Shown piece after piece: positions 13,486-53,527 of a stretch of 64,000 nt of DNA. A program made the position numbers and the translations under genes. The DNA comes from Crossiella cryophila. GTDB taxonomy: Bacteria > Actinomycetota > Actinomycetes > Mycobacteriales > Pseudonocardiaceae. Location of the stretch: assembly GCF_014204915.1 (NCBI RefSeq), contig NZ_JACHMH010000001.1, positions 8,581,501 through 8,645,500 of the forward strand, given 5' to 3'. Numbering within the stretch: the stretch's first letter is position 1; each line of letters opens with the position of its first letter. Under the pieces are notes generated by a model. The model saw only the letters and a program-made list of their open reading frames with translations. It did not search any database and was not told where the DNA came from.

Positions 13486-13514
13486 GGGGTTTAGCTAGCT
13501 AGCCGGGGTGCGGG

Positions 13515-14999
13515 TCAGGCGCCGCCGGAGAGCTTTTCGCGGAGGGCAGCGAGCTGTTCGTCGCTGGCCAGGGTGCCGCTGGTCTCGCCGCCGGAGCTGT
13601 AGTTGCCGCCGCCGCTGGCTGCGGGGGCGCCGCCCTCGGCCGGGCCTGCGGCCGCGGCTTCGGCGTCGGCCTCGGAGGCCTTGACGACCTGCTTGATGTG
13701 GGCGTCGAAGCGGGTACGCGCCTCGGCGTACTGCTTCTCCCACTCCTCGCGCTGCTTGTCGAAGCCCTCGAGCCAGTCCTGGGTCTCCGGGTCGAAGCCT
13801 TCGGGGTAGATGTAGTTGCCCTCGGCGTCGTACTCGGCGGCCATGCCGTACTGGGTCGGGTCGAACTCGGACTCCGCGGTGAAGCCCTCGTTCGCCTGCT
13901 TCAGCGAGAGCGAGATCCGGCGGCGGTCCAGGTCGATGTCGATGACCTTGACCATGACGTCGTCGCCCACCTGGACGACCTGCTCCGGGATCTCCACGTG
14001 GCGCTCGGCCAGCTCGGAGATGTGGACCAGGCCCTCGATGCCCTCGTCCACCCGGACGAACGCGCCGAACGGAACCAGCTTGGTGACCTTGCCCGGCACG
14101 ATCTGGCCGATCGCGTGGGTCCGGGCGAACTGGCGCCACGGGTCTTCCTGGGTCGCCTTCAGCGACAGGGAGACGCGCTCGCGCTCCATGTCGACGTCGA
14201 GCACCTCGACGGTGACTTCCTGGCCGACCTCGACAACCTCGGACGGGTGGTCGATGTGCTTCCAAGACAGCTCGGAGACGTGCACGAGGCCGTCGACGCC
14301 ACCCAGGTCCACGAAGGCACCGAAGTTGACGATCGAGGACACGACGCCCTTGCGGACCTGGCCCTTCTGCAGCTGGTTGAGGAACTCGCTGCGGACCTCG
14401 GACTGGGTCTGCTCCAGCCAGGCGCGACGGGACAGGACCACGTTGTTGCGGTTCTTGTCCAGCTCGATGATCTTGGCTTCGAGCTCGCGGCCGACGTAGG
14501 GCTGGAGGTCGCGCACGCGGCGCATCTCGACCAGGGAGGCGGGCAGGAAGCCACGCAGCCCGATGTCGAGGATGAGCCCACCCTTGACCACCTCGATGAC
14601 GGTGCCCTTGACCGGCTCGTCCTTCTCCTTGAGCGCCTCGATGGTGCCCCACGCGCGCTCGTACTGAGCACGCTTCTTGGAGAGGATCAGCCGGCCTTCC
14701 TTGTCCTCCTTCTGGAGAACGAGGGCCTCGACGTGATCGCCGACAGTGACAACCTCGGCGGGGTCGACGTCGTGCTTGATCGACAACTCGCGCGAGGGGA
14801 TGACGCCCTCGGTCTTGTAGCCGATATCGAGAAGCACCTCGTCACGGTCGACCTTGACGATGGTGCCTTCGACGATGTCGCCATCGTTGAAGTACTTGAT
14901 GGTGAGATCGATGGCGGCGAGGAAGTCCTCCGCCGTCCCGATGTCGTTGATGGCGACCTGCGCGGCCGCGGCGGGAACGGTGGTGGTGTCGGTGGACAT
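13515..14999 (-). CDS. rpsA: 30S ribosomal protein S1
   Basis: 494-residue essential RNA-binding ribosomal protein that helps the 30S subunit take up mRNA. Four S1 (OB-fold) domains are visible, for example GDIVEGTIVKVDRDEVLLDIGYKTEG, then GTVIEVVKGGLILDIG, KGVVSSIVNFGAFVDLGG and GKVTKLVPFGAFVRVD. A long acidic/Ala/Gly-rich tail carries no S1 fold. Four domains plus a tail is the actinobacterial form, shorter than the six-domain enterobacterial protein. The ATG is chosen because MSTDTTT is the typical family start; the open frame 61 codons upstream is the promoter region. It is divergent from a methyltransferase gene. Confidence 0.97.
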   Translation of the reverse strand: MSTDTTTVPAAAAQVAINDIGTAEDFLAAIDLTIKYFNDGDIVEGTIVKVDRDEVLLDIGYKTEGVIPSRELSIKHDVDPAEVVTVGDHVEALVLQKEDKEGRLILSKKRAQYERAWGTIEALKEKDEPVKGTVIEVVKGGLILDIGLRGFLPASLVEMRRVRDLQPYVGRELEAKIIELDKNRNNVVLSRRAWLEQTQSEVRSEFLNQLQKGQVRKGVVSSIVNFGAFVDLGGVDGLVHVSELSWKHIDHPSEVVEVGQEVTVEVLDVDMERERVSLSLKATQEDPWRQFARTHAIGQIVPGKVTKLVPFGAFVRVDEGIEGLVHISELAERHVEIPEQVVQVGDDVMVKVIDIDLDRRRISLSLKQANEGFTAESEFDPTQYGMAAEYDAEGNYIYPEGFDPETQDWLEGFDKQREEWEKQYAEARTRFDAHIKQVVKASEADAEAAAAGPAEGGAPAASGGGNYSSGGETSGTLASDEQLAALREKLSGGA

Positions 15000-25196: not shown

Positions 25197-25264
25197 TGCC
25201 CCAACCTAGCGGGAACCTGGATCGGCGTTCGCGGCTCATGCTGGGTGAAGGAGGGGTGAGAGGT

Positions 25265-25756
25265 GTGGGGATCGACTCGCAATGGTTCGCCCGGCTCTAC
25301 CAGGACAACTACCGGTCGCTGGTGCTGGTGGCCTACGCCATGACCAACGACCTGGGGGATGCCGAGGACCTGGCCCAGGAGACGTTCGCGGTGGCCTACC
25401 GCAAGCGCGGCCAGGTCGCCGAGACGGACAGCCCGGCGGCCTGGCTGCGCACGGTGGTGGTCAACCTGGCCCGGAAACGCTGGCGGCGGCGCAGTCTGCT
25501 GCACCGGCTGCTGATCCCGAGGGCGGAACCGAGTCCGCCCGCGGACATCGGCGCCGAGCACGCGGAACTGCACGCCGCGATCGGCGCGCTGGAGCAGGAA
25601 CGGCGGGCGGTGGTGGTGCTGCACTACCTGGCCGACCTGCCGGTGGAGGAGGTGGCCGCGGTGCTGCGGGTGCCGGTGGGCACGGTGAAGTCCCGGCTGT
25701 CCCGGGCCAGGGCCGCGCTCGCCCAGCGGCTGACGACGGAGGTGGGGCATGACTGA
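25265..25756 (+). CDS. ECF (group 4) RNA polymerase sigma factor
   Basis: 163 residues holding sigma region 2 (about 5-70: FARLYQDNYRSLVLVAYAMTND, GDAEDLAQETFAVAY) and region 4 (about 105-155: LEQERRAVVVLHYLADLPVEEVAAVLRVPVGTVKSRL), without region 3. The GTG at 25265 is chosen because GGAGG lies about 10 bases upstream; a GTG at 25256 and an ATG at 25238 are in frame. Its stop overlaps the start of the first propeller gene in an ATGA, the usual arrangement of an ECF sigma factor with its anti-sigma factor. Promoter target not identified. Confidence 0.9.
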   Translation: MGIDSQWFARLYQDNYRSLVLVAYAMTNDLGDAEDLAQETFAVAYRKRGQVAETDSPAAWLRTVVVNLARKRWRRRSLLHRLLIPRAEPSPPADIGAEHAELHAAIGALEQERRAVVVLHYLADLPVEEVAAVLRVPVGTVKSRLSRARAALAQRLTTEVGHD

Positions 25757-26972
25757 GCTGGACAACCGACTCGACGACCAACTGGCGGGTCTGCGCGCGG
25801 ACCTGCGGGCCGCGGTCCGCGATCCGGGGCAGGGCCCGGTGCTCGAACGAGTGCGCAGGCGGGCCCAGCGGCGGCGCACGGCGTTCGGGGTGAGCACGGT
25901 GAGCGTGGGCGTGGTGGCCTCGCTGGGGTTGCTCTACGGCCTGCTCGGGGCGGGCCAGCTCGCCGAGCCGCCCGCGCACTCGGGCGGCTCGGCCGAGCGT
26001 TCGGTGACGATGCTGGACTACGCCGACCCCCGGCACGGTTACGCGTTGCGGGCGGATTGTCCCGGTGGCCAGGAGACCTGCGTCAACATGCTGCTGTCCA
26101 CCGTCGACGGCAAGGACCAGGCCGAGCGGGCGGTGCCAGCGGAGGTGGCCGGGTACGGGCGGCTGCCCGCGGTCAAGGTGCTCGGCCCCGGCAACCTGGT
26201 GATCAACGGCAACGGCGGCTACTGGCACAGCATCGACGGCGGCCTCACCTGGCGGCGGCGGGAGTTCAACGGGCCGGACGCCGCGGAGATCCCCAAGGGC
26301 GGGTTCCTGGAGAACTGCGCCGGCGACCTGGCGGTCGAGTGCACCAAGGAGTTCGTGACGGTGCACGACCCGGCCACCGGGCAGCGGCGCACCCTGAGCA
26401 CCCAGCCCGCGCTGGACATCCGCACGGTGTTCAAGGCCCCCGCCCCGGACGGCACCTGGTGGGTGGCCGGGACGATCCCCGGCACGGACCGGTCCGCACT
26501 GGCGAGCAGCCGGGACAACGGGCGGAGCTGGCAGGTGCGGGAACTGCCCGCGGTGGCCACCGGCAAGCAGATCGGCACCCCGGTCGCCGCACCCGACGGC
26601 ACCTATTACCTGCCGGTGACCAACGGCGAGAACCTGGTCACGATCCTGCGCAGCGGTGACGGCGGCCAGACCTGGACCCAGGCATGGGTGCCACGCGATT
26701 CGACCGCCGCCTCCCGGCTCCCCGGGCCGGAGACCCTGCGCGGCGACCTGGTGCCCGGTGCGGGCGGGCGGCTGCGGCTGATCGACAAGGAGGGCGTGAC
26801 CTGGCGCAGCGACAACGGCGGGCAGAGCTTCGCCAAGGCGGAACAGCAGATCCCCGGCACCGAGGTGGAGTGGACCCGCAACGGTTTCCTCGCCTATTCC
26901 TGGACCGCGAACCACGCGAGCAGGCTGTACCACCAGTCCGGTGACGGCGAGACCTGGCGGGAGGTGCCGTGA
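25749..26972 (+). CDS. Membrane-anchored Asp-box propeller protein 1, candidate anti-sigma factor
   Basis: 407 residues. Unlike its six paralogues it has a cytoplasmic N-terminus of about 45 residues (charged, helical, RVRRRAQRRR), then a membrane segment (46-67) and an outside domain with sialidase-type Asp boxes: SIDGGLTW, SRDNGRSW, SGDGGQTW and SDNGGQSF. The shared family phrase is DYADPRHGYALRADC, and two Cys pairs could form disulfides. Translational coupling to the sigma gene and the cytoplasmic head make it the best candidate for the anti-sigma factor, with the propeller as sensor. No zinc-binding HxxxCxxC motif is present, so the assignment is inference. Confidence 0.75.
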   Translation: MTELDNRLDDQLAGLRADLRAAVRDPGQGPVLERVRRRAQRRRTAFGVSTVSVGVVASLGLLYGLLGAGQLAEPPAHSGGSAERSVTMLDYADPRHGYALRADCPGGQETCVNMLLSTVDGKDQAERAVPAEVAGYGRLPAVKVLGPGNLVINGNGGYWHSIDGGLTWRRREFNGPDAAEIPKGGFLENCAGDLAVECTKEFVTVHDPATGQRRTLSTQPALDIRTVFKAPAPDGTWWVAGTIPGTDRSALASSRDNGRSWQVRELPAVATGKQIGTPVAAPDGTYYLPVTNGENLVTILRSGDGGQTWTQAWVPRDSTAASRLPGPETLRGDLVPGAGGRLRLIDKEGVTWRSDNGGQSFAKAEQQIPGTEVEWTRNGFLAYSWTANHASRLYHQSGDGETWREVP

Positions 26973-28033
26973 TGATCAGCTCCCGCCTGCGGCTGCCGGT
27001 GATCGCGGCCGCCCTGATCGTCCTGGTGGCCTCGGCCGTGCTGGTGCTGCGCCAGGACACCGAACCAGCACCCGCGCCGGAACGGCCGACCGATCTCCGG
27101 CTGCTCGACATCGACTTCGCCACCGAGCGGCACTGGTTCGCGCTGCGGGCCCGGTGCGAGCAGGCGGACTGCACGCACCAGCTCCTCGACGTGGACAACG
27201 GCGTGGTCCAGGTCCGCGAACTGCCCGAGCCACTGCGTGCCCACCGCTCCGGCCCGCCGCCGCGGCTGCACGTGCTGGGCGGCAAGCTGGCCGTGGCCGG
27301 GGCGGAGCGGCGCTGGCACTCCGAGGACCGGGGCCGGACCTGGCAGGAGGGGCTGATGGCGGTCGACTGGCCGATGGACGGCCTGCTGCCGGACATGCTG
27401 CTCCAGCACTCCTGCCACGGCAAGGACCCGTGCGTGCCGGGGATCGACGCGGTGCTGTCCTTCACCGGGCAGCAGGTTCCGCTGACGCCCGAGTTCACCC
27501 CGCCGCTGACCGAGCCGTTCCCGTTCCCGCGTCAGCTCGCCGGACGGTGGTGGGTGGTGGGCAAACGGGACGGGCGGGCGGCCGTGTCCACCAGCGACGG
27601 CAATGGTCGCCGCTGGCAGACCAGGGAGCTGCCGTCCACCCCGCCGGGCGCCTTCCGCTGGGCCGAGGTGGTCGTCTCCGGCGACACCGCGTACGTGCTG
27701 ATCACCACCGATCACCAGCCGTTCGCGAGCACGCTCTACCGCGGTGCCGGCGAGAAATGGGAACAGGTCTGGCAGGCCCGGCCGGACGGGCAACCGCCGG
27801 AGATCACCGGGCTGGCCGCCGCGCCGGACGGCACGCTGCTGGCCGTGAGCCAGGGTGGCGGCTCCTGGTTCAGCGCGGACGGCGGGCACACCTTCCACGC
27901 CGGGCAGATCGCCGAACAGCGGGTGCCCGGCGACACCCTGCGCTCGGTCCGCGGCGGCATGCTCAGCACCTCCGAACGCGGGGCCAGCCACTCGGTGGAC
28001 GGCAGGCGGTGGACACCGTTGCCCTTCGGCTAG
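26972..28033 (+). CDS. Membrane-anchored Asp-box propeller protein 2
   Basis: 353 residues: a few basic residues, one membrane helix (about 7-26), then an extracytoplasmic propeller-like domain. Family marks are DFATERHWFALRARC, the paired cysteines in CEQADCTHQLL and SCHGKDPCVPG, and Asp boxes SEDRGRTW, TSDGNGRRW and SADGGHTF. The start ATG overlaps the previous stop by one base (TGATG), so it belongs to the same operon. No catalytic residues of true sialidases (Arg triad) are evident, so binding rather than hydrolysis is more likely. Confidence 0.8.
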   Translation: MISSRLRLPVIAAALIVLVASAVLVLRQDTEPAPAPERPTDLRLLDIDFATERHWFALRARCEQADCTHQLLDVDNGVVQVRELPEPLRAHRSGPPPRLHVLGGKLAVAGAERRWHSEDRGRTWQEGLMAVDWPMDGLLPDMLLQHSCHGKDPCVPGIDAVLSFTGQQVPLTPEFTPPLTEPFPFPRQLAGRWWVVGKRDGRAAVSTSDGNGRRWQTRELPSTPPGAFRWAEVVVSGDTAYVLITTDHQPFASTLYRGAGEKWEQVWQARPDGQPPEITGLAAAPDGTLLAVSQGGGSWFSADGGHTFHAGQIAEQRVPGDTLRSVRGGMLSTSERGASHSVDGRRWTPLPFG

Positions 28034-28079
28034 CGCTAACCTGGCCGGCAGGGGTGTGGGGACGAGGGGGTGGTCACCG

Positions 28080-29189
28080 GTGACCGAGCTGCCCTCCCGG
28101 TGGCGGATGCCGTTGGCCGGGGCGACCGTGTGCGCGGTGCTGGTGGCGATCGTGATCGTGTTGCGCGAGGACTCGGTGCCGCCGCCTGCCGCGCCGGCAG
28201 GCACGGTCTCCGATCAGCCGATGGTGCTGGTGCTGCGCGCGGTGGACTTCGTGCACGAGCGGCACTGGTTCGGTGTGCAGGGCCGGTGCCAGGAGACCGA
28301 CGCCCGGCGGTGCGCGCACACGTTGCTGGAGTCCGAGCACGGCCAGGTGCGGTCGCGGGAACTGCCAGCCGAACTACGCGGGCAGCGCGGCGGGACCGCG
28401 GTCGGGGTGACCGTGCTCGGGCCGGAACGGCTGCTGGTGCAGAGCGATCCGGGACGGCGCTGGTACTCCGCTGATCGCGGGCAGCACTGGGCCGAGGTCG
28501 GCCCGGACGCGCCGCCGGTGGGCGAGATCCCGCCGAACGGCGTCCTGGAACGCCACTGCGAACCGCTGCCCGGCTGCACGCCGAAGATCATGGTGACGCT
28601 GCCGGACTCCGGTCGCCGGGCCGAGCTGCGCGGGGTGCCGCCGCTGACCGAGATCGTGCTGCACACCGGATTCGCCGACGCCGACGGGAAATGGCGCCTG
28701 GTGGGCAGGCGTGCGGACCGGCCGGTGCTGGCCGCCAGCGCGGACCGCGGCCGCAGCTGGCAGGTCGGCGAACTGCCGCCGGGACCGCGTGGCCAGTTGA
28801 TCGACGCCGAGGTGGCGCTGTCCGGCCGCAGCACCTACCTGCGGCTGGCGAGCAGGCCGCCGGAGCGGGACGGCAAACCCGCGACGGCCTTGTACCGCGA
28901 CGACGGCGCCCGCTGGCAGCTGGTCTGGCAGTCCGATCCGGCCGGGCCGGAACCGCGTTCGCTGACCGGGGTGCTGCCCCGGCCGGGCGGGCAGCTGGCC
29001 GCCACCGACGAGCGGGGCGACGGCTGGGTGAGCGCCGACGGCGGCCGCTCCTTCCAGCCCGCCCGGCCCGAGGACCAGATCCCGCGCGGCCGGCCGCGGC
29101 GGGCCCGCACCGGCTACCTGGCCGAGGCAGGCAACACACTGAGCCACTCCCCCGACGGCGTGCGCTGGACGCCACTGCCGAACGGATGA
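28080..29189 (+). CDS. Membrane-anchored Asp-box propeller protein 3
   Basis: 369 residues, same plan: short N-terminus VTELPSRWRM, membrane helix (about 11-28), Pro/Ala linker and propeller domain. Family marks: DFVHERHWFGVQGRC with RRCAHTLLE, the second pair in RHCEPLPGC, Asp boxes SADRGQHW, SADRGRSW and SADGGRSF, and the end SHSPDGVRWTPL. The GTG start is taken because GAGGGGG lies about 10 bases before it. This gene has the largest gap in the array (46 bp), so an internal promoter is possible. Confidence 0.8.
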   Translation: MTELPSRWRMPLAGATVCAVLVAIVIVLREDSVPPPAAPAGTVSDQPMVLVLRAVDFVHERHWFGVQGRCQETDARRCAHTLLESEHGQVRSRELPAELRGQRGGTAVGVTVLGPERLLVQSDPGRRWYSADRGQHWAEVGPDAPPVGEIPPNGVLERHCEPLPGCTPKIMVTLPDSGRRAELRGVPPLTEIVLHTGFADADGKWRLVGRRADRPVLAASADRGRSWQVGELPPGPRGQLIDAEVALSGRSTYLRLASRPPERDGKPATALYRDDGARWQLVWQSDPAGPEPRSLTGVLPRPGGQLAATDERGDGWVSADGGRSFQPARPEDQIPRGRPRRARTGYLAEAGNTLSHSPDGVRWTPLPNG

Positions 29190-29193
29190 ATCG

Positions 29194-30285
29194 ATGACCC
29201 GCAACCGGATCCTGCTCGCCCTGCTCGCGGTGGCCCTGCTGGCCGCGGTGCTGGTGGTGCTGCGCGAGCAGGCCGGACCACCGCCGCCGGAGCCGCCGGG
29301 TCCGACCGCGATCGCCGAGCAGCCGCGGCCGACCATCCTGGAGACCGCGGACTTCGCCGACGAACGGCACTGGTTCGGGCTGCGCGCCCAATGCCGGGAG
29401 CCGAACCGGGACCGGTGCGTGCGCACGCTGGTCACCGTCGAGGACGGGGCGCCGCGGGTGCGCGAGCTGCCCGAGGAACTGCGCGGCGACCAGGAACACC
29501 AGCGGCTCACCCTGCTCGCGCTGGGGCCGCGCCAGGTCGCGGTGCGCAACCGGTACTTCCGGAGCTGGTACTCCGGGGACGCCGGGCAGAGCTGGGCCGA
29601 GGTGCACGAGCGGGCCGCGCCGGTGGACCGGATCCCACCGGCCGCGGTGCTGGAGCGGGACTGCTCCCTCTCCGGCTGCGAACAGCGGATCGTGGTCGTG
29701 CTGCCGGAGTCCGGGCGCCCTGCCGAACTACGCGGGCTGCCACCGCTGACCGACCCGCACCCGGTGCCGATCCCGGACGGCCAGGGCCACTGGCGGGTGG
29801 TCGGGACGCTCGCCGGGAAACCGGTGGTGGCCACCAGCGCGGACCACGGGAACAGCTGGCAGACAAGCGCATTGCCGCCCGGCGGGCCCACGGAGATCGA
29901 ACGCGTGCAGCTGATCCCGGCCGGGGACCGCGGCTACCTCCAGGTCGACGGCAAGCCGCCGCCCGGCGGCGACACCAGCACCGGCCTGTACCGGGGGGAG
30001 GGCGCGGACTGGCGGCTGGTCTGGCGCAGCACCCCCGGCGAGAAGCCGCTGAGCGGCATGTACGGCCTGGTCCCCGCGCCGGGGAACCGGCTCGTCTCCC
30101 TCGACCACCAGCGGGCCACCGGCGTGAGCGAGGACGGCGGCCGCACGTTCCGGCCGGCCCGGCCCGAGGAGGAGCTGCCCGGCGTGTGGATCAGCCACAC
30201 CCGGAAGGGCCACCTGGTCACCTCCTTCACCGACATCAGCCACTCCCCCGACGGCGGCACCTGGACCGTCCTGCCGAAAGGCTGA
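29194..30285 (+). CDS. Membrane-anchored Asp-box propeller protein 4
   Basis: 363 residues. N-terminus MTRNRILLALLAVAL (membrane helix about 5-23) and a PPPEPPGP linker are nearly identical to the next gene. Family marks: DFADERHWFGLRAQC, RCVRTLVTVEDG, RDCSLSGCEQR, and Asp boxes SGDAGQSW, SADHGNSW and SEDGGRTF. Only 4 bases separate it from the previous stop. High similarity to protein 5 points to recent duplication. Confidence 0.8.
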   Translation: MTRNRILLALLAVALLAAVLVVLREQAGPPPPEPPGPTAIAEQPRPTILETADFADERHWFGLRAQCREPNRDRCVRTLVTVEDGAPRVRELPEELRGDQEHQRLTLLALGPRQVAVRNRYFRSWYSGDAGQSWAEVHERAAPVDRIPPAAVLERDCSLSGCEQRIVVVLPESGRPAELRGLPPLTDPHPVPIPDGQGHWRVVGTLAGKPVVATSADHGNSWQTSALPPGGPTEIERVQLIPAGDRGYLQVDGKPPPGGDTSTGLYRGEGADWRLVWRSTPGEKPLSGMYGLVPAPGNRLVSLDHQRATGVSEDGGRTFRPARPEEELPGVWISHTRKGHLVTSFTDISHSPDGGTWTVLPKG

Positions 30286-30290
30286 ACCCC

Positions 30291-31385
30291 ATGCGCCGCA
30301 ACCGGATCCTGCTCGCCCTGCTCGCGGTGGCGCTGGTCGCCGCGGTGCTGGTGGCACTGCGCGAGCAGGCCGGACCACCGCCGCCGGAGCCGCCGGGTCC
30401 GACCGTGTTCGCCGAGCCGCCGCGGGAAGCCGTGCTGGAGACCGCGGACTTCGCCGACGAACGGCACTGGTTCGGGCTGCGGGCCCGGTGCCACCGGCCA
30501 CCGATGTTCGGGTGCGTGCGCACGCTGCTGGCAGTCGAGGACGGGGTGACCCGGGTGCGCGAGCTGCCGGAGGAACTGCGTGGCGAGCAGGAACGGCCGC
30601 AGGTCAGACTGATGACGCTGGGGCCGCGCCAGGTCCTGGTGCACACCAGGTACTTCCGGAGCTGGTACTCCGGGGACGCCGGACAGAGCTGGACCGAGAT
30701 CCATGAGCGGGCCGCGCCGGTGGACCGGATCCCGCCCGCCGCGGTGCTGGAACGGGACTGCACCCTCGCCGGGTGCGAACAGCGGGTCGTGGTCGTCCTG
30801 CCGGACTCCGGCCGCCGCGCCGAACTACGCGGCCTGCCACCGCTGACCGAGGCGCACCCGGTGCCGATCCCGGACCGGCAGGGCCGCTGGCGGGTGGTCG
30901 GGGTGCTGGACGGGAAACCGGTGGTGGTCACCAGCGCGGATCAGGGGCACAGCTGGCAGGTGCGCGCGCTGCCGCCCGGCAGTCCGGACAAGATCGAACG
31001 TGTCCGGCTGACCTCCGCCGACGGCGGCATGTACCTGCAGATCGATGCCGTGCCTCGGCAATACCCGAGCGATATCCCCACATTCCTGTACCGCGGCCAG
31101 GGCGAGGGCTGGGAGCTGGTGTGGCGGAACGATTCCGGCGAGCAGCCGCTGCGCTCCCTCTACGACCTGGTGCCCGGTCCCGGCGGCCGGATCACCGCAC
31201 TCGACCAGCAACGCCTCAACCGGGTCAGCGAGGACGGCGGCCGCACGTTCCGGCGGGCACGGCCCGAGGAGGAACTGCCCGGCGAGTTCATCTGGCACGT
31301 CCGGACCGGCCACCTGATCGGCTCGCAGACCGAACTCCGCCACTCCGTCGACGGCGTGGCCTGGACGCTGTTACCCAAGGACTGA
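30291..31385 (+). CDS. Membrane-anchored Asp-box propeller protein 5
   Basis: 364 residues and the closest paralogue of protein 4, with the same MRRNRILLALLAVAL membrane anchor, PPPEPPGPT linker and DFADERHWFGLRARC block. Differences cluster in the loops (for example RHRPPMFGC region and QIDAVPRQYPSDIPT), as expected for diversification of a binding surface. Asp boxes SGDAGQSW, SADQGHSW and SEDGGRTF are present. It starts 5 bases after the previous stop, with a GAAAGG ribosome site inside the end of the upstream gene. Confidence 0.8.
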   Translation: MRRNRILLALLAVALVAAVLVALREQAGPPPPEPPGPTVFAEPPREAVLETADFADERHWFGLRARCHRPPMFGCVRTLLAVEDGVTRVRELPEELRGEQERPQVRLMTLGPRQVLVHTRYFRSWYSGDAGQSWTEIHERAAPVDRIPPAAVLERDCTLAGCEQRVVVVLPDSGRRAELRGLPPLTEAHPVPIPDRQGRWRVVGVLDGKPVVVTSADQGHSWQVRALPPGSPDKIERVRLTSADGGMYLQIDAVPRQYPSDIPTFLYRGQGEGWELVWRNDSGEQPLRSLYDLVPGPGGRITALDQQRLNRVSEDGGRTFRRARPEEELPGEFIWHVRTGHLIGSQTELRHSVDGVAWTLLPKD

Positions 31386-31390
31386 ATCCC

Positions 31391-32467
31391 ATGCGCCGCA
31401 ACCGGATCCTGCTCGCCGCCCTGGTGCTCGCACTGGCCGGGACGGCCGTGTTGGTACTGCGGGAGGAGGCCGGACCGCCGCCGCCCGAGCCGGAGGCCGC
31501 CGCCGAGCCGCCCCGGCGGATCGCGTTGCGGGGCGTGGAGTTCGCCGACGAGCGGCACTGGTTCGGGGTGCGTGCCCACTGCCGCGACGACGGTCAGGAC
31601 TGGTGCGCGCACACGTTGCTGGCCGGGCAGGACGGCCGGGTGGCGCCGCGCGAGCTGCCACCGGAACTGCGTGGCGACCAGCAGCACCTGGCAATCAACC
31701 TGGTGGCGCTGGGGCCGTCCCGGCTGGTGGTGTGGGAGGGGTCGCGCCGCTGGTTCACCGCCGACGCCGGGCAGAGCTGGACCAGGGTCGACGAGGACGC
31801 CCCGCCGGTGGACCGGATCCCGGCGGGCGCGGTGCTCGAACCGGACTGCACGCCCACCGGCTGCGCGCCGCGGGTGCTGGTCGTGCTGCCGGAGTCCGGG
31901 CGCAGGGCCGAACTGCGTGGACTGCCACCGCTGGGCGACGTGCGCCCGGTGCCGCACCCGGACGCCGCGGGCCGCTGGCGGGTGGTCGGGACGCACCGCG
32001 GCCGACTGGCCGTGGCCGACACCGCCGACGCGGGGCGCGGCTGGCAGGTGCGGGAGCTGCCGCCCGGTCCGGTGGCCAGGCCGAAACGCGTGCAGCTGGT
32101 CTTCGCAGGGCACACCGGATACCTGCTGATCGACGGCGAGGCCCAGCCGCAGGGCCGCGTCCTGCAGAACCTGTATCGCGGCGACGGCCAGCGGTGGGAA
32201 CTGAGGTGGCACAGCACCGAGGGCCGGTACCCGAACGTCCTGTTGGCACTCATCCCCCGGCCGGACGGCAGGCTGACCGGGCTCGACCAGGCGAGTCAGA
32301 CCTGGGTGAGTGAGGACAGCGGCCGGTCCTTCCGCCCGGCGCGGCCCGAGGAGGTGCTCAACGGGTGGGCGGCCTACCCCACCCGCTCCGGGCACCTGCT
32401 GGCCGCCGAAACCGATACCAGCCACTCCCCCGACGGCGTAACCTGGACTCTCCTGCCGAAGGGCTGA
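31391..32467 (+). CDS. Membrane-anchored Asp-box propeller protein 6
   Basis: 358 residues. Anchor MRRNRILLAALVLALAG, shorter linker, EFADERHWFGVRAHC with WCAHTLLAG, second Cys pair in PDCTPTGCAPR, and Asp boxes TADAGQSW, TADAGRGW and SEDSGRSF. The ending SHSPDGVTWTLLPKG is shared with proteins 4 and 5. Five bases from the previous stop. Same orientation and spacing indicate one long transcript from the sigma gene. Confidence 0.8.
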   Translation: MRRNRILLAALVLALAGTAVLVLREEAGPPPPEPEAAAEPPRRIALRGVEFADERHWFGVRAHCRDDGQDWCAHTLLAGQDGRVAPRELPPELRGDQQHLAINLVALGPSRLVVWEGSRRWFTADAGQSWTRVDEDAPPVDRIPAGAVLEPDCTPTGCAPRVLVVLPESGRRAELRGLPPLGDVRPVPHPDAAGRWRVVGTHRGRLAVADTADAGRGWQVRELPPGPVARPKRVQLVFAGHTGYLLIDGEAQPQGRVLQNLYRGDGQRWELRWHSTEGRYPNVLLALIPRPDGRLTGLDQASQTWVSEDSGRSFRPARPEEVLNGWAAYPTRSGHLLAAETDTSHSPDGVTWTLLPKG

Positions 32468-32472
32468 ACGCC

Positions 32473-33567
32473 ATGCGCCGCAACCGGATCCTGCTCGCCG
32501 CCCTGGCTCTCGCGGTGGCGGTCACGGCCGTGGTGGCGTTGCGCGAACAGGCCGGGCCGCCGCCGGAACCCACCGCCGCACCCGAGACGAGCGCCGAACT
32601 GGAACCGGACCGCGCGCCGACCGGGATCGTGGCCCTGGACTTCGCCGACGACCGGCACGGTTACGCGGTCCGCCGGGTCTGCCGGGACGGCCCGGCCGAT
32701 GTCTGCCAGGCGCACCTGCTGGCCACCACCGACGGCTTCCAGTCCGCCGAGCACCGCGACCTGCCGCCAGGGGTCGGCGGCTACCTGGGCGGGCTCACCG
32801 GGTTCGTGGTGCTGGGGCCGCAACGCCTGCGGGTCGGCGCGGGCCCGGATCAGCACTACAGCGGGGACGGCGGGCGGAGCTGGACCAGGGTCGAGGGCGA
32901 GGCGGCGCCGGTGGACGGGATCCCGGCCGGGTCGCGGCTGGAACGGCAGTGCCAGCAGAGCCGGTGCGTGCTGCGGGTGGTGCTGCCAGGGTCCGGGCAG
33001 TCGGCGGCGTTGCGGCACCCGCCCGCGCTGACCGATCCACGCCCGCTGCCGGTGCCCGCGCGGGACGGGCGCTGGTGGGTGGTCGGCCGGGCCGTCGACG
33101 GGCGCGCGCCGGTGGTGGCCAGCAGCGTGGACGGACGGGACTGGCTGGTGCGGGAACTGCCCGCGGCGCCCTATGCCGGCTGGTGGCAGGCGGGTGTGGC
33201 GGTGGCGGGCAACGCGGTGTACGTCGGGGTGACCGGGCCGGGGGCGGAGGCGGCCGGATCGCTGCTGACGCTGTACCGCAGCGGGGACGGCGGCGCGAGC
33301 TGGGCCAGGGTGCAGGCCGGGGTGGCCAGCCCCTCGCTGACCGCGGCCCTGGTGGTCGGCGCGGACGGCGAGCCCCGGCTGCTGGACCGGTCAGGACAGA
33401 CCGTGACCGGGACCGGCGGCGGCCGCGAGTTCCGGACGGTGGCGGCGGAGCAGCGGCTGCCCAAGGGCACGGTGACCTGGACCCGCGGCGGCTACCTGGC
33501 CGAAACCCCCTACGAGCACCTGGTCTCCGCCGACGGCAGCACCTGGACCCGGCTCTGGGTGGCCTGA
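32473..33567 (+). CDS. Membrane-anchored Asp-box propeller protein 7
   Basis: 364 residues, last of the array. The anchor MRRNRILLAALALAV matches proteins 4-6, but the outside domain is closer to protein 1: DFADDRHGYAVRRVC (HGYA rather than HWFG), a DGFQSAEHRDLP phrase and Asp boxes SGDGGRSW, SVDGRDW, SGDGGASW. Second Cys pair is RQCQQSRC. It may be a hybrid of an array-type anchor and a protein-1-type sensor. It ends 7 bp before the convergent oxidoreductase gene. Confidence 0.8.
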   Translation: MRRNRILLAALALAVAVTAVVALREQAGPPPEPTAAPETSAELEPDRAPTGIVALDFADDRHGYAVRRVCRDGPADVCQAHLLATTDGFQSAEHRDLPPGVGGYLGGLTGFVVLGPQRLRVGAGPDQHYSGDGGRSWTRVEGEAAPVDGIPAGSRLERQCQQSRCVLRVVLPGSGQSAALRHPPALTDPRPLPVPARDGRWWVVGRAVDGRAPVVASSVDGRDWLVRELPAAPYAGWWQAGVAVAGNAVYVGVTGPGAEAAGSLLTLYRSGDGGASWARVQAGVASPSLTAALVVGADGEPRLLDRSGQTVTGTGGGREFRTVAAEQRLPKGTVTWTRGGYLAETPYEHLVSADGSTWTRLWVA

Positions 33568-41393: not shown

Positions 41394-42093
41394 TCAGGCG
41401 ACGCCCAGGTACGCCTCCTTGATGGACGGGTCGGCCAGCAGCTCCGCGCCCGTGCCCTCCTTCACGATGCGGCCGGTCTCCAGCACGTAACCGCGGTGGG
41501 CCCGGCTCAGGGCCTGCTGCGCGTTCTGTTCCACCAGCAGCACCGTGGTGCCCTGCTCGTTGATCTCCCGGATGATGCGGAAGATCTGCTGGATGAACTG
41601 CGGGGCCAGGCCCATCGAGGGCTCGTCCAGCAGCAGCACCCTCGGCCGGGCCATCAGCGCGCGGCCGATGGCGACCATCTGCTGCTCACCGCCGGACATG
41701 GTGCCGCCGACCTGGCTCTTGCGTTCGGCCAGCCTGGGGAACAGCTCGAAGACCCGCTCGAAGTCCTGGGCGATGGCCGCCTTGTCCTTGCGGGTGTAGC
41801 AGCCCATCTCCAGGTTCTCCAGCACCGTCATGCCGGGGAAAACGCCCCGGCCTTCCGGGGACTGGCAGATGCCGCGGACGACCCGGAGGTCGGCGCGCAG
41901 CTTGGTGATGTCCTCGCCGTCGAAGCGGATGGTGCCGCCGGAGAGCGGGCGCACGCCGCTGATGGCGCGCATGGTGGTGGACTTGCCCGCGCCGTTGGCG
42001 CCGATCAGGCTGACGATCTCACCCTGCTCCACGTGCAGCGAGACGCCCGTCAGGGCCTGGATCCGGCCGTAGTGCACGGACATGTTGTTCAGC

Positions 42094-42107
<14 letters not shown>
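41394..42107 (-). CDS. livF: Branched-chain amino acid ABC transporter ATPase LivF
   Basis: 237-residue ABC ATPase. Walker A GANGAGKST, signature MSGGEQQMV, Walker B VLLLDEPSMGLAP and the switch His region VLLVEQNAQQAL are intact. The short form with MGLAP identifies LivF rather than LivG. It overlaps livG by 14 bases and is last of the livJ-H-M-G-F operon. Confidence 0.95.
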
Positions 42108-43013
<906 letters not shown>

Positions 43014-43017
<4 letters not shown>

Positions 43018-44156
43018 CCCTGCACCCCCTTCTTCGAGTCGAGCATCGAACTCTCCGTGGCGATCTGCTCCGGTTTGCCCAGCAGCTTCTGATAAGCCTG
43101 CCTGCCCCTGGCGAGCAGCCGCTGCCGCGCGCCCAGCAGACCCTGCGGGCGGAACAGCATCAGCACGATCAGCGCGATACCGAAGATCAGGTACTTGTAC
43201 TCGGCGATCTCCTGGAACCTATCCGGCAGATAGGAGATGACGAACGCGCCCAGGATCACCCCGACCTTGTTCCCCGATCCGCCGAGCACCACCGCGGCCA
43301 GGAACAGCACCGAGGTGACCACGTCGAACTTCTGGTTGTTCACGAACCCGATCTGGCCGGCGTACAACACCCCGGACAGACCGCCGATCGCGGCGCCGAT
43401 GGCGAAGGCCCACAGCTTGAACTTGAACGTGGGCACGCCCATGATCTCGGCCGCGTCCTCGTCCTCCCTGATGGCGATCCAGGCCCGGCCGACCCGGCTG
43501 CGCTCCAGGTTCCCGACGAAGACCAGCACGATGATGATGATCGTGATGGTCAGCCAGTACCACGGGGTTCCGTTGGTGGAGTTGAAGATCGGCAGACCCG
43601 CCGCGTTCTCCAGCTCAGGGCGGCCGACCTCCTGGAAGCCGCGGTTGCCGCGCAGCCCAGGGACGTTGTCGGCCAGCAGGCGCACGATCTCGCCGAAGCC
43701 CAGGGTCACGATCGCCAGGTAGTCCCCGCGCAAGCGCAGTGTCGGTGTCCCCAGCAACACGCCGGAGACCATGGTCACCAGCATCGCGACCGGGATCACC
43801 GCGATCCACGGGTAGTCCCAGCGCAGCGGGGATTCCGGCGAGGTCAGCAGCGCCGCGACGTAGGCGCCGACGGCGAAGAAGCCGACGTAGCCCAGGTCGA
43901 GCAGACCGGCCTGGCCGACCACCACGTTGAGCCCGATCGCGATCAGCGCGAACCGGGCCGCGTTGAACAGCGCGATCTGGAAGTCGGTGCCCGGCTCAGT
44001 GGTCAGCAGCGGCGGGTTGATCAGCGGCAGCAGGTACAGCAGAGCCACCAGCGGGATGAGCACACCCCACTGCTGGAACCGGTTCAGGCCGTTCCACCAG
44101 TCACGCACGCGCTGGCCGAAGGGCACGGCCGCGGTCTTCTCGTGTTGTGCGTTCAT
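43014..44156 (-). CDS. livM: Branched-chain amino acid ABC transporter permease LivM
   Basis: 380 residues with about ten membrane helices and the LivM hallmarks NVVVGQAGLLDLGYVGFFAVGAYVAAL, LRLRGDYLAIVTLGFGEIVRLL and a cytoplasmic R-x-W-x-A-I-R-E-D-E-x-A-A loop (RAWIAIREDEDAAEIMG). The start MNAQHEKTA is taken because it overlaps the livH stop in an ATGA; the upstream frame is livH in another phase. Confidence 0.94.
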
Positions 44157-50803: not shown

Positions 50804-51751
50804 TCACCGCCGCACCTCGTTGACGGGGTCACCTGGCGGGTCGGCGTCAGCAGGGATCGGGCGCCGCCTGCTGAGCCGCCCGTGCGCGGCCAGGATGCCC
50901 AGCAGCACCAGGGCCGCGCCCACGGGCTGGTGCCAGGCGACGGGTTCGGCCAGGACCAGCACACCCAGCAGTACGCCGACCACGGGCGTCACGTAGGTCA
51001 CCGCGGCCGCGTTGGTGGCGCCCCAGTCGCGCACCACCGCGGTGTTCCAGACGTAGGCCAGGCCGGTGCCGACCGCGCCCAGCGCGATCATGCTCAGCAG
51101 CACCGGCGGGGACAGATTCCCTGGTGTGCCAAGGAAGGGGGTGGTCAGCAGCATGAGCACGGCGCCGATGGTGACCTGGATGAAGGCCATGGTCACCGCG
51201 GGTACGTCCCGGTCGCCGAGGAAGCGGCGCAGGTAGACGAAGGCCAGGCCGTAGCTGGTGGTGGCGCCCAGGCAGGCGAGCTGGGCTGGCAGGTCGCCGG
51301 TGAGGTCGGCGGTGAACGGGCCGATGATCACCAGTACTCCGGCGAAACCGAGCAGCAGGCCGGTGAGGCGGTTCCTGGTGAGGCGTTCGGTGCGTAGCAA
51401 CGCGGCGGCGAAGGCGGTGGTCGCGAGGGGGGTGGTGGCGTTGTAGATGCTGGCCAGGCCGGAGGACAGCCGGGTCTCGGCCCAGGCGAAGAGCAGGAAC
51501 GGCAGCACGCAGAGCAGCACCGAGACCACGGCCAGGTGCGCCCACAGCCTCAGCTCGCGCGGGATCGATTGGCGGGTGGCCAGTACCAGCACGCCGAGGG
51601 TGAGCGCGCCCAGCAGCAGCCGTCCGGCCACGATCTGCGCCGGGCTCAGCTCGGTGAGCGCGATCTTGATGAACAGGAAGCTGGACCCCCAGGCCAGGGC
51701 CAGCAGGCCGAACTGGACCGGGGTGCCCAGCCGGGCTCGGGTGATCGGCAC
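50804..51751 (-). CDS. EamA-family (DMT superfamily) transporter
   Basis: 315 residues with ten predicted membrane helices in two EamA repeats: LALAWGSSFLFIKIALTELSPAQIV at the start and LALVLLGILAAHG near the end. The family exports amino acids, nucleobases or drugs; the substrate is not predictable. GTG start. The last 20 residues are charged and cytoplasmic. Confidence 0.88.
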   Translation of the reverse strand: MPITRARLGTPVQFGLLALAWGSSFLFIKIALTELSPAQIVAGRLLLGALTLGVLVLATRQSIPRELRLWAHLAVVSVLLCVLPFLLFAWAETRLSSGLASIYNATTPLATTAFAAALLRTERLTRNRLTGLLLGFAGVLVIIGPFTADLTGDLPAQLACLGATTSYGLAFVYLRRFLGDRDVPAVTMAFIQVTIGAVLMLLTTPFLGTPGNLSPPVLLSMIALGAVGTGLAYVWNTAVVRDWGATNAAAVTYVTPVVGVLLGVLVLAEPVAWHQPVGAALVLLGILAAHGRLSRRRPIPADADPPGDPVNEVRR

Positions 51752-51854
51752 GCTGCTCCCTCCGCGGCACCCGGCGGTTGTGCCGGGGCCGGGAGGGAGT
51801 CAACCCGCCGCGGGGGCGGGCTGTCCGGCGGGAATCAGACCGCGAGCCGGCGGC

Positions 51855-52820
51855 TCACAGGCCGCCGAGGAACTCCAGCAGCGCCTTGTTGACCTCGTCC
51901 GGGCGCTCCTGCTGGGTCCAGTGCCCGCAACCGGGCAGGTCGACCACGCCGCGCAGGTCGGGCAGGATCTTCGGCAGCACCTGGTCCATGAACTCCGGCG
52001 GGTAGAAGGCGCGCACCAGGTCCCGGTCGCCGCTGAGGTAGAGCGCGGGCGCGGTGATCCGGGCGTTCTGCCAGGGCGCGGTCAGCTCCCAGTTGCGGTC
52101 GATGTTGCGGTACCAGTTCAGGCCGCCGGTGAAGCCGTTGCGCTGGTACTGCTCGGTGTAGGCGTCGATGTCGGCCTCGGTGACCCAGCCCGGCAGCGTC
52201 TCCGGATCGGGCATCGCGGCCAGGAACCCGCCCGCCTGGGCCAGCGGGGCCGCGGCCGGGTTGGCGCCCTCGCCGGAGGTGGCGGCCAGGGTCTTGCGGA
52301 AGGCGCCGCGGATATCGGAGTTCAGCTCGGCGTCGGCGACACCCGGTTCCTGGAAGTAGATCTGGTAGAAGCCGTCGCCGAAGCGCTCGCGCGCGGCGAC
52401 CAGCGGCGGCACCGGGCCGCGCGGGCCGGGCGCCACGCTGAGTCCGGCCACGCCGCGGACCAGGTCCGGCCGCAGCATGGCGGTGTGCCAGGCGACCGGG
52501 CCGCCCCAGTCGTGCCCGACCACCACGGCCTGCTTGTGGCCGAGCGCCTCGATCAGGCCGACCACGTCGCCGACCAGGTGGAAGATCGAGTAAGCGTCCA
52601 CATCGGACGGTTGGTCGGTGCCGCCGTAGCCACGCTGGTCCGGCGCGACCACGTGGTAGCCGGCCGCGGCCAGCGGTTCGAACTGGTGCCGCCAGGAGTA
52701 CCAGCTCTCCGGGAAGCCGTGCAGCAGCAGCACGAGCGGGCCCTCGCCCTGCTCGGCGATGTGCATGGTGATGCCGTTGACGGACACTTCACGGTGCTGT
52801 GGCAACGAGATTCCCCTCAT
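51855..52820 (-). CDS. Epoxide-hydrolase-type alpha/beta hydrolase
   Basis: 321 residues. HGFPESW (34-40) provides the oxyanion hole, Asp104 in VVVGHDWGGPVAW is the nucleophile, and His300 in GCGHWTQQE is the catalytic base. An Asp nucleophile after GHxWGG and the PESWYSWRHQ phrase identify the epoxide hydrolase/haloalkane-type branch. The start ATG overlaps the TetR stop (ATGA), which puts it third in an operon with an FAD monooxygenase: epoxidation followed by opening is a plausible sequence. Confidence 0.9.
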   Translation of the reverse strand: MRGISLPQHREVSVNGITMHIAEQGEGPLVLLLHGFPESWYSWRHQFEPLAAAGYHVVAPDQRGYGGTDQPSDVDAYSIFHLVGDVVGLIEALGHKQAVVVGHDWGGPVAWHTAMLRPDLVRGVAGLSVAPGPRGPVPPLVAARERFGDGFYQIYFQEPGVADAELNSDIRGAFRKTLAATSGEGANPAAAPLAQAGGFLAAMPDPETLPGWVTEADIDAYTEQYQRNGFTGGLNWYRNIDRNWELTAPWQNARITAPALYLSGDRDLVRAFYPPEFMDQVLPKILPDLRGVVDLPGCGHWTQQERPDEVNKALLEFLGGL

Positions 52821-53527
52821 TCCGTATTCGTGACGATGGTGGCCAGCACGGCCGCTCGTCGTTCGTGCAGCAGGGTCAGGCCGATCTCGGCGGTGGCGCG
52901 GACCTCCGCCGCGGTGGCGGTCTCCTGGCCCAGCAACGCGGTCACCGCGGTGGCCAGCACGGCCGTGGGATCGGCGACCTCGACCTCGGTCAGCGCGTGC
53001 GGGTGCGCGGCCACCTGGAAGAACCCGGCGGTCATCGCCCGCAGCGCGTACGCCTGCTCGTCCAGTGGCCAGTCGGCGCGGGCCAGGTGGTGCTCCCGCC
53101 ACACCGGCAGCACCGCGTACATCAGCGCGCCGGGGCCGAGTGCGCTGATGAGTTCGGTGCTGCGCGGGTGCTCGGCCAGGATGCCGAGCATCTCCACGTC
53201 ACCGGTCTGCAGCGCGCGCACGATCGGGCGGTCCAGCGCGACCTGGACCAGCCGGGGGACCAGCCGGTGCGGGCGGGCGTTGTCCGGATCGCCGGTGAAG
53301 TTCTCGATGAACTCGTCAACCACTTCCAGGAAGTCCCTGGCGAACAGCCCGACGAACAGGTCCTCCTTGGTGCCCCAGTACAGGTACACCGTGCCCTTGC
53401 CGACGTGCGCCTTCTCCGCGATCTCGGCGATCGTGACGCCCTTGACCCCGCGCCGCAGCAACAACTCCCTGGCCACACCGAGGATGCGGGCGGCCTTCCC
53501 CGAGTCGTGTTCGACCAGTTGAGCCAT
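52817..53527 (-). CDS. TetR-family regulator
   Basis: 236 residues. HTH at about 15-58 (LGVARELLLRRGVKGVTIAEIA, AHVGKGTVYLYWGTKEDLFVG), helical ligand domain after. The start is fixed by MAQLVEHDS at 53527; the long open frame upstream is antisense to the monooxygenase gene. Second gene in an operon, between the FAD monooxygenase and the hydrolase. It probably binds the inverted repeat at 54819. Confidence 0.92.
   Translation of the reverse strand: MAQLVEHDSGKAARILGVARELLLRRGVKGVTIAEIAEKAHVGKGTVYLYWGTKEDLFVGLFARDFLEVVDEFIENFTGDPDNARPHRLVPRLVQVALDRPIVRALQTGDVEMLGILAEHPRSTELISALGPGALMYAVLPVWREHHLARADWPLDEQAYALRAMTAGFFQVAAHPHALTEVEVADPTAVLATAVTALLGQETATAAEVRATAEIGLTLLHERRAAVLATIVTNTE

Follow-up and report, generated by a model that had tools for sequence, protein, structure and literature searches.

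The DNA described here, hereafter the window, is a stretch of 64,000 nucleotides (positions 8581501-8645500) from the 10.06-Mb single-contig genome of Crossiella cryophila (G000). It carries a gene for an extracytoplasmic function (ECF) sigma factor followed by seven genes for membrane-anchored Asp-box propeller proteins, p1 to p7, all on the forward strand. The sigma gene (25265..25756) begins with GTG and encodes a SigE-like protein of 163 amino acids. It overlaps by 8 nt the gene for p1 (25749..26972, 407 amino acids), which is a candidate anti-sigma factor and receptor by its sequence, a head profile and an AlphaFold2 model. The p2 gene (26969..28033) overlaps that of p1 by 4 nt and its product matches PSII_BNR just above the cut-off. 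After a gap of 46 nt comes p3 (28080..29189), followed at gaps of 4-5 nt by p4 (29194..30285), p5 (30291..31385), p6 (31391..32467) and p7 (32473..33567); p5 is nearest to p4.

An earlier note on this DNA described one ECF sigma gene overlapping a first Asp-box protein, with six more propellers at near-zero spacing. The overlap is as described, and so is the spacing except between p2 and p3. Two conserved cysteine pairs are present in all seven proteins, and the several SxDxGxxW boxes amount to 2-4 strict [ST]x[DE]xGxx[WFS] boxes per protein. The block (D/E)FxxxRH(W/G)(F/Y), said to be common to all, is exact in p2-p7 and reads DYADPRHGY in p1. A cytoplasmic head is indeed found only in p1, where it measures about 43-45 residues by eye (residues 1-45, 25749..25883), and p2-p7 start about 5-12 residues ahead of the membrane segment, also by eye.

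A second Crossiella genome (G001) carries the array in synteny, so the arrangement is not due to chance; identities are 94% for sigma, 79% for p1, 84% for p2, 91% for p3, 82% for p6 and 92% for p7. A single G001 copy replaces p4 and p5 and groups with p5 (86/81). Three more Crossiella genomes (G002-G004) were compared, a p3-like member is the sole copy in G002 and G004 (about 50% identity) and an orthologue of p7 is retained in G003. An initial scan of genome contigs with p1 gave no matches. Elsewhere in G001 there is a solitary headless propeller (L040:8838-10001).

The sigma factor and the head of p1

The sigma factor matches PF04542 (50.4 bits) and PF08281 (59.6 bits), both above the Pfam cut-offs, and contains sigma70 regions 2 and 4 only, as ECF sigma factors do. 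The nearest NCBI family is TIGR02983 (SigE-fam_strep), where the score of 141.1 bits is 0.45 short of the curated cut-off of 141.55 and membership is not claimed. Upstream lies a predicted sigma-dependent promoter, GGAACC-N17-CTCATG (25212..25240). Its hexamers and spacing are kept, as GGAACC-N17-CTCNTG, upstream of sigma in 14 of 15 close-clade loci (the window, L165-L176 and L268, the exception being L267) and also in the more distant G134. The shorter GGAAC[CT] is found upstream in 23 of the 80 related sigma loci inspected, the best 80 of 88, compared with 6.4% of random pieces. This conservation suggests that the sigma factor is probably autoregulated through GGAACC-N17-CTCATG. GGAACC is absent from the 110 bases upstream of p3, which was rejected as a sigma target, and a consensus promoter scan found no promoter before this gene. 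p3 may have its own promoter, with TAACCT (28037..28042) as a weak, possible -10-like hexamer; a TANNNT-type hexamer occurs at a similar, unequal distance before the p3-like genes of G001-G004.

The head was compared across proteins with a profile trained on ten heads from genera other than Crossiella. p1 scores 35.2 bits, and the heads of 13 sigma-paired propellers all score above 16 headless propellers (area under the curve, AUC, 1.0); an E-value of 0.01 is reached by seven of the 13 and of 1 by 12, and by none of the 16. Over 63 positives and 666 negatives the AUC is 0.91, and four of the five top-scoring negatives (L217, L211, L195, L225) begin at the sigma stop and are heads missed by the automatic rule. 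Heads behind sigma are arginine-rich, about 32-48 residues long, and follow by eye roughly the pattern P-x-[LVF] then R.R.RR.RRR.

Family searches were then crossed, with sigma at 1e-40 (14 of 200 genomes positive) and propellers at 1e-15 (13 of 100 genomes positive). In the 100 genomes, sigma-adjacent propellers are headed in seven of seven cases (p1 of G000, G034, G338, G339, G164 and two in G358) and propellers without an adjacent sigma in none of 13 (six in G000, G002, two in G003, G004, G007, G031 and G351), where the cases are not independent, the G012 fusion is set aside and one G003 copy has a start assigned by eye. Absence of the head goes along with absence of sigma. By these counts it is the head, rather than the propeller, that tracks sigma. 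The earlier note named, as one of two conditions under which its proposal would fail, a head that neither co-evolves with sigma nor binds it, and this co-occurrence contradicts a lack of co-evolution.

In the AlphaFold2 model of p1, helices span residues 2-23 and 28-65 with a break at 24-27, and the second runs into the membrane helix. This predicted arrangement, a short two-helix cytoplasmic domain beside one membrane helix, is the architecture of class II (CnrY-like) anti-sigma factors. CnrY grips its sigma factor by two helices, which cover regions 2 and 4 (PMC7406223, PMC4598750). Both CnrY and p1 have a two-helix cytoplasmic domain encoded with an ECF sigma factor, the shape of the p1 head being predicted. 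They differ in that they share no significant sequence match and that CnrY depends on CnrX as a distinct sensor protein, the propeller of p1 being part of the same chain. A class I zinc anti-sigma head (HxxxCxxC) was rejected for p1, whose head has no Cys or His, and sub-threshold homologue matches to CU044_5270 and an NCBI anti-sigma model were weak and not used. A large anti-sigma survey, as its available portion describes, kept class I domains and discarded those under 50 residues (PMC7406223).

Over 10 loci the head is more conserved than the outer domain (48% vs 33%). The Mantel correlation between sigma and head is 0.835 over 59 pairs, a set of 59 of the 61 automatically found partners from which L183 (spurious frame) and L193 (truncated frame) were dropped.

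Outer domains and fusions in related loci

The outer domain of p1 (25995..26963) is modelled by AlphaFold2 as a seven-bladed Asp-box propeller, with pLDDT mostly above 90. The model has seven box-equivalent hairpins, placed between strands 3 and 4 as in other Asp-box propellers, and VIA-align gives structural matches to propellers; solved proteins related by sequence and by fold include Ycf48. The Crossiella propellers share their predicted fold and Asp-box hairpins with Ycf48, GH74 and sortilin as described in the available text of PMC2716378, and differ in being anchored N-terminally by a membrane helix.

A headed propeller with 2-5 Asp boxes lies directly downstream of sigma in all 12 nearest loci (56-94% identity, among the best 80 of 88), which come from Crossiella, Actinophytocola, Actinocrispum, Kibdelosporangium, Actinosynnema, Actinokineospora and one record titled Rhodococcus rhodnii, and overlap the seven cases above. 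The locus in that last record (L172, JOAA01000001.1) is very like that of Kibdelosporangium aridum, and the record may be mistitled. Three Micromonosporaceae loci (L190, L210, L224) also have a headed propeller downstream. In G039 (L049:6400-14100) four tandem SigE-like sigma genes lie in under 8 kb, at least three of them directly followed by a headed propeller.

Across the 80 loci, a head-plus-membrane protein follows sigma in at least 64 (61 by the rule, including the spurious L183, with the four missed ones added), and four Catellatospora fusions have half a head, which leaves 12 loci without an assignment. The majority of the remoter partners, chiefly from Micromonospora, keep the head and membrane helix and have no Asp boxes. 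Of 14 further sigma loci inspected within C. cryophila, four (L087, L088 twice, L089) continue into a membrane protein with a similar-looking head and no propeller, the one head scored among these, that of L087, reaching 6.1 bits; behind several more lie proteins whose motifs, judged by eye, resemble zinc fingers. The earlier note named sigma genes without propellers in other genomes as a sign against a sigma-propeller system. Taken literally such genes are found, but they retain a similar short head on other outer domains, and for this reason we take the head to be the probable sigma partner.

In four Catellatospora species a single open frame (L178:9983-11401, L179:9983-11413, L181:9983-11413, L183:9983-11410) encodes a sigma factor in which regions 2 and 4 are intact, joined to the latter half of the head, a membrane helix and a shorter propeller. 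The model of such a fusion has low confidence (pLDDT 66.7, pTM 0.40), sigma region 2 is good, region 4 middling and the outer domain partial, and it provides no information on contacts. A second fusion is found in G012 (L044:9274-10941), where by alignment the sigma part is without most of region 2.4 and the region 4 recognition residues and continues into a complete head, a membrane helix and a propeller. IutY (ECF243), in which sigma and anti-sigma factor are fused, becomes active through proteolysis (PMC8999054). Like IutY and the predicted ECF48/52/53 fusions in the available portion of that paper, the Catellatospora proteins are one chain of sigma, membrane helix and a further part; ECF48/52/53 are described there with a zinc-finger domain, whereas the Catellatospora fusions have a short arginine-rich half-head and a propeller. 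The proposal in the earlier note that p1 is the anti-sigma factor and sensor gains support from the head profile, from the joint absence of head and sigma and from sigma-propeller fusions in these two lineages.

History of the locus and rates of change

The genes share a chromosomal site with the order, full or partial, GNAT - ABC-2 permease - (TetR-like by eye) - sigma - propeller - polA. It was found in the five Crossiella genomes, in Actinophytocola, Actinocrispum, Kibdelosporangium, Actinosynnema and Actinokineospora loci and in G012, where the fusion sits at this same polA-linked locus. In G031, G007 and G351 the order is GNAT - headless propeller - polA with no sigma. No GNAT/ABC-2/polA flank matches were found at the Micromonosporaceae loci tested. 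Judged from gene order, the locus is polA-linked across Pseudonocardiaceae. G358 has a second sigma-propeller pair (L267), with a headed propeller and no GNAT, ABC or polA matches within 20 kb around.

The number of headless copies at the locus ranges from one to six across the five Crossiella genomes. Sigma and p1 are both absent from G002, G003 and G004, where one, two and one headless copies respectively remain, and this pattern suggests that the two were lost jointly in some Crossiella species. No further propeller was found within the examined flank at the other 11 nearest loci, the array is seen only in Crossiella. In a midpoint-rooted propeller tree, which excludes L190, L210 and L224 and includes two Catellatospora fusions, the 15 same-locus Crossiella headless copies (p2-p7 and those of the other four genomes) group as a single clade (99/96) whose sister is Crossiella p1, with support (84/87) below the high-support mark of the tool. 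The head label needs 3 changes on this tree against a shuffled mean of 12.3. Because of this clade, its sisterhood with p1 and the few head-label changes, the array most likely expanded within Crossiella from a p1-type ancestor, the head having been lost once.

An explanation along the lines of the earlier note has p2-p7 as surface sensors that tune p1, whether by joining it in mixed complexes or by vying with it for a common ligand that then informs sigma. In two Crossiella genomes the propellers follow sigma as one tandem array, which would fit this, and no terminator-like site was found in the array, which says little as shuffled sequences average only 1.3. We consider such tuning unlikely, since p2-p7 are headless, headless copies are retained where sigma and p1 are absent, and p3 may, on weak grounds, be transcribed separately. 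A set of immunity or surface-variation proteins against the secreted proteins of competitors, with sigma-p1 as mere neighbours, might also produce diversified tandem paralogues in numbers that vary between genomes, and three homologues have weak, sub-threshold matches to Tli3 immunity proteins. This is very improbable given that the headless copies appear to stem from a p1-type protein at the same locus and that no toxin family is found by Pfam among nine nearby proteins.

The ratio of amino-acid-changing to silent substitution rates (dN/dS) between G000 and G001 is 0.33 for sigma, 0.78 for p1, 0.49 for p2, 0.22 for p3, 0.56 for p6 and 0.31 for p7. Against the single G001 copy it is 0.88 for p4 and 0.65 for p5, and p4 against p5 gives about 0.70. 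Amino-acid changes relative to silent ones exceed those of p3 in p1, p5 and p6 (Fisher p 7e-6, 4e-5 and 3e-3); the share in p1 differs from that in p3 and p7, and not clearly from that in sigma (p 0.074). Selection on the loops of p4 and p5, suggested by the earlier note, is not borne out, strands differ as much as loops and dN/dS is below 1. Positive selection is not supported more generally either, no whole gene being above dN/dS 1 between G000 and G001, and a value of 2.39 for an 18-codon p1 linker comes from very few changes and is not relied on. Pooled over seven comparisons, top-face loops change slightly more than bottom-face loops (134/622 vs 85/543, p 0.011), with the faces assigned by hand and no single comparison significant. 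Faster change of p1, p5 and p6, rather than positive selection, is what these codon comparisons establish.

These rates bear on a further explanation, in which the propellers are envelope assembly factors or chaperones similar to Ycf48, the sigma factor regulates how much of them is made, and the p1 head serves for feedback tethering and has no receptor role. The kinship with Ycf48 noted above and the retention of a propeller without sigma in several lineages agree with it. The faster change of p1, p5 and p6 than p3 would be unusual in a conserved assembly factor, and other such sigma factors carry different outer domains behind a similar head, so that we regard this explanation as quite unlikely.

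Elsewhere in the window, long open frames at 13495-14649, 42082-43089 and 51447-53519 have no Pfam match at 1e-5 and are candidate genes only.

A candidate receptor and its headless relatives

The explanation we favour, with a probability of roughly 0.58, is that sigma and p1 form an autoregulated receptor/anti-sigma switch and that p2-p7 are most likely ligand-binding decoys or neutralisers. It builds on the gene content, the association of head and sigma, the fusions, the conserved promoter-like motif, the predicted folds, the shared locus and the duplication history. The 45-residue p1 head would hold sigma inactive at the membrane, its two helices clasping sigma as in CnrY, and the seven-bladed propeller would bind an extracellular ligand via its top face. 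Ligand binding would release sigma, probably by proteolysis of p1 if RsiV and IutY are a guide, and the freed sigma factor would transcribe its own operon from GGAACC-N17-CTCATG. p2-p7, as headless relatives of a p1-type protein, could not hold sigma by the p1 route because the head has been lost; they may instead bind the same or related ligands outside the cell.

The putative decoy role follows the example of RsiV, a membrane anti-sigma factor that binds lysozyme and is then cleaved, that also inhibits lysozyme, and whose operon is autoregulated (PMC5014341). In RsiV-SigV of Bacillus subtilis, as in the proposed switch, the membrane anti-sigma factor is itself the receptor and the operon is autoregulated, and the inhibition by RsiV of its own ligand is the parallel proposed for p2-p7. 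The p1 outer domain is different, the ligand of RsiV is lysozyme, and the available portion of the paper describes no headless extra copies.

Several observations weigh against this explanation. Headless copies persist without sigma in several genomes and therefore have a function independent of it. The decoy role is suggested purely by analogy, and the binding of sigma by the p1 head is putative. Only 23 of 49 partners of other related sigma factors reach a head-profile E-value of 1 or better, so the likeness there is partly a matter of position and of judgement by eye. Pfam CnrY (PF17524) has no match in p1, among the ten proteins scanned only the head of the L166 homologue matches it (14.8 bits against a cut-off of 25), and a PDB profile search with the heads gave no anti-sigma factor among its matches. 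In the 10-locus propeller clade the Mantel correlation of sigma with the outer domain (r 0.88) is higher than with the head (r 0.63), which does not single out the head. The second pair of G358 (L267:9622-11344) is without the strict promoter motif. Genome-wide, the strict GGAACC-N17-CTCNTG has five sites compared with eight for a reversed control, and no further regulon is visible. A wider regulon was rejected on this count (of the other four G000 sites, three apparently overlap coding frames and one falls on a start codon), and we propose autoregulation alone because the motif is no commoner than the control.

More tentatively, the whole may be a receptor-plus-decoy locus, in which one propeller has a sigma-holding head and a headless family shapes or removes the signal, and whose possible evolutionary steps are seen in living relatives. 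A path from separate sigma and receptor to a single-chain fusion, then to a decayed sigma and lastly to loss of sigma with headless receptors left would be conceivable under it.

Sigma/anti-sigma pairs are common, and many of their sensors and ligands are still unassigned. No sigma-propeller receptor array or Asp-box anti-sigma factor was found among the titles and abstract openings listed by full-text literature searches, and the sigma group may already be numbered in the 2021 ECF classification or the 2015 actinobacterial survey. With a recognisable short head, membrane receptors could be assigned to many actinomycete SigE-like sigma factors. The polA-linked locus amounts to a natural experiment, a single site at which sigma is present, fused, decayed or absent. 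The Catellatospora fusions permit a direct test of proteolytic release, and in Crossiella it could be tested whether additional copies of the receptor dampen a sigma response or shape it.

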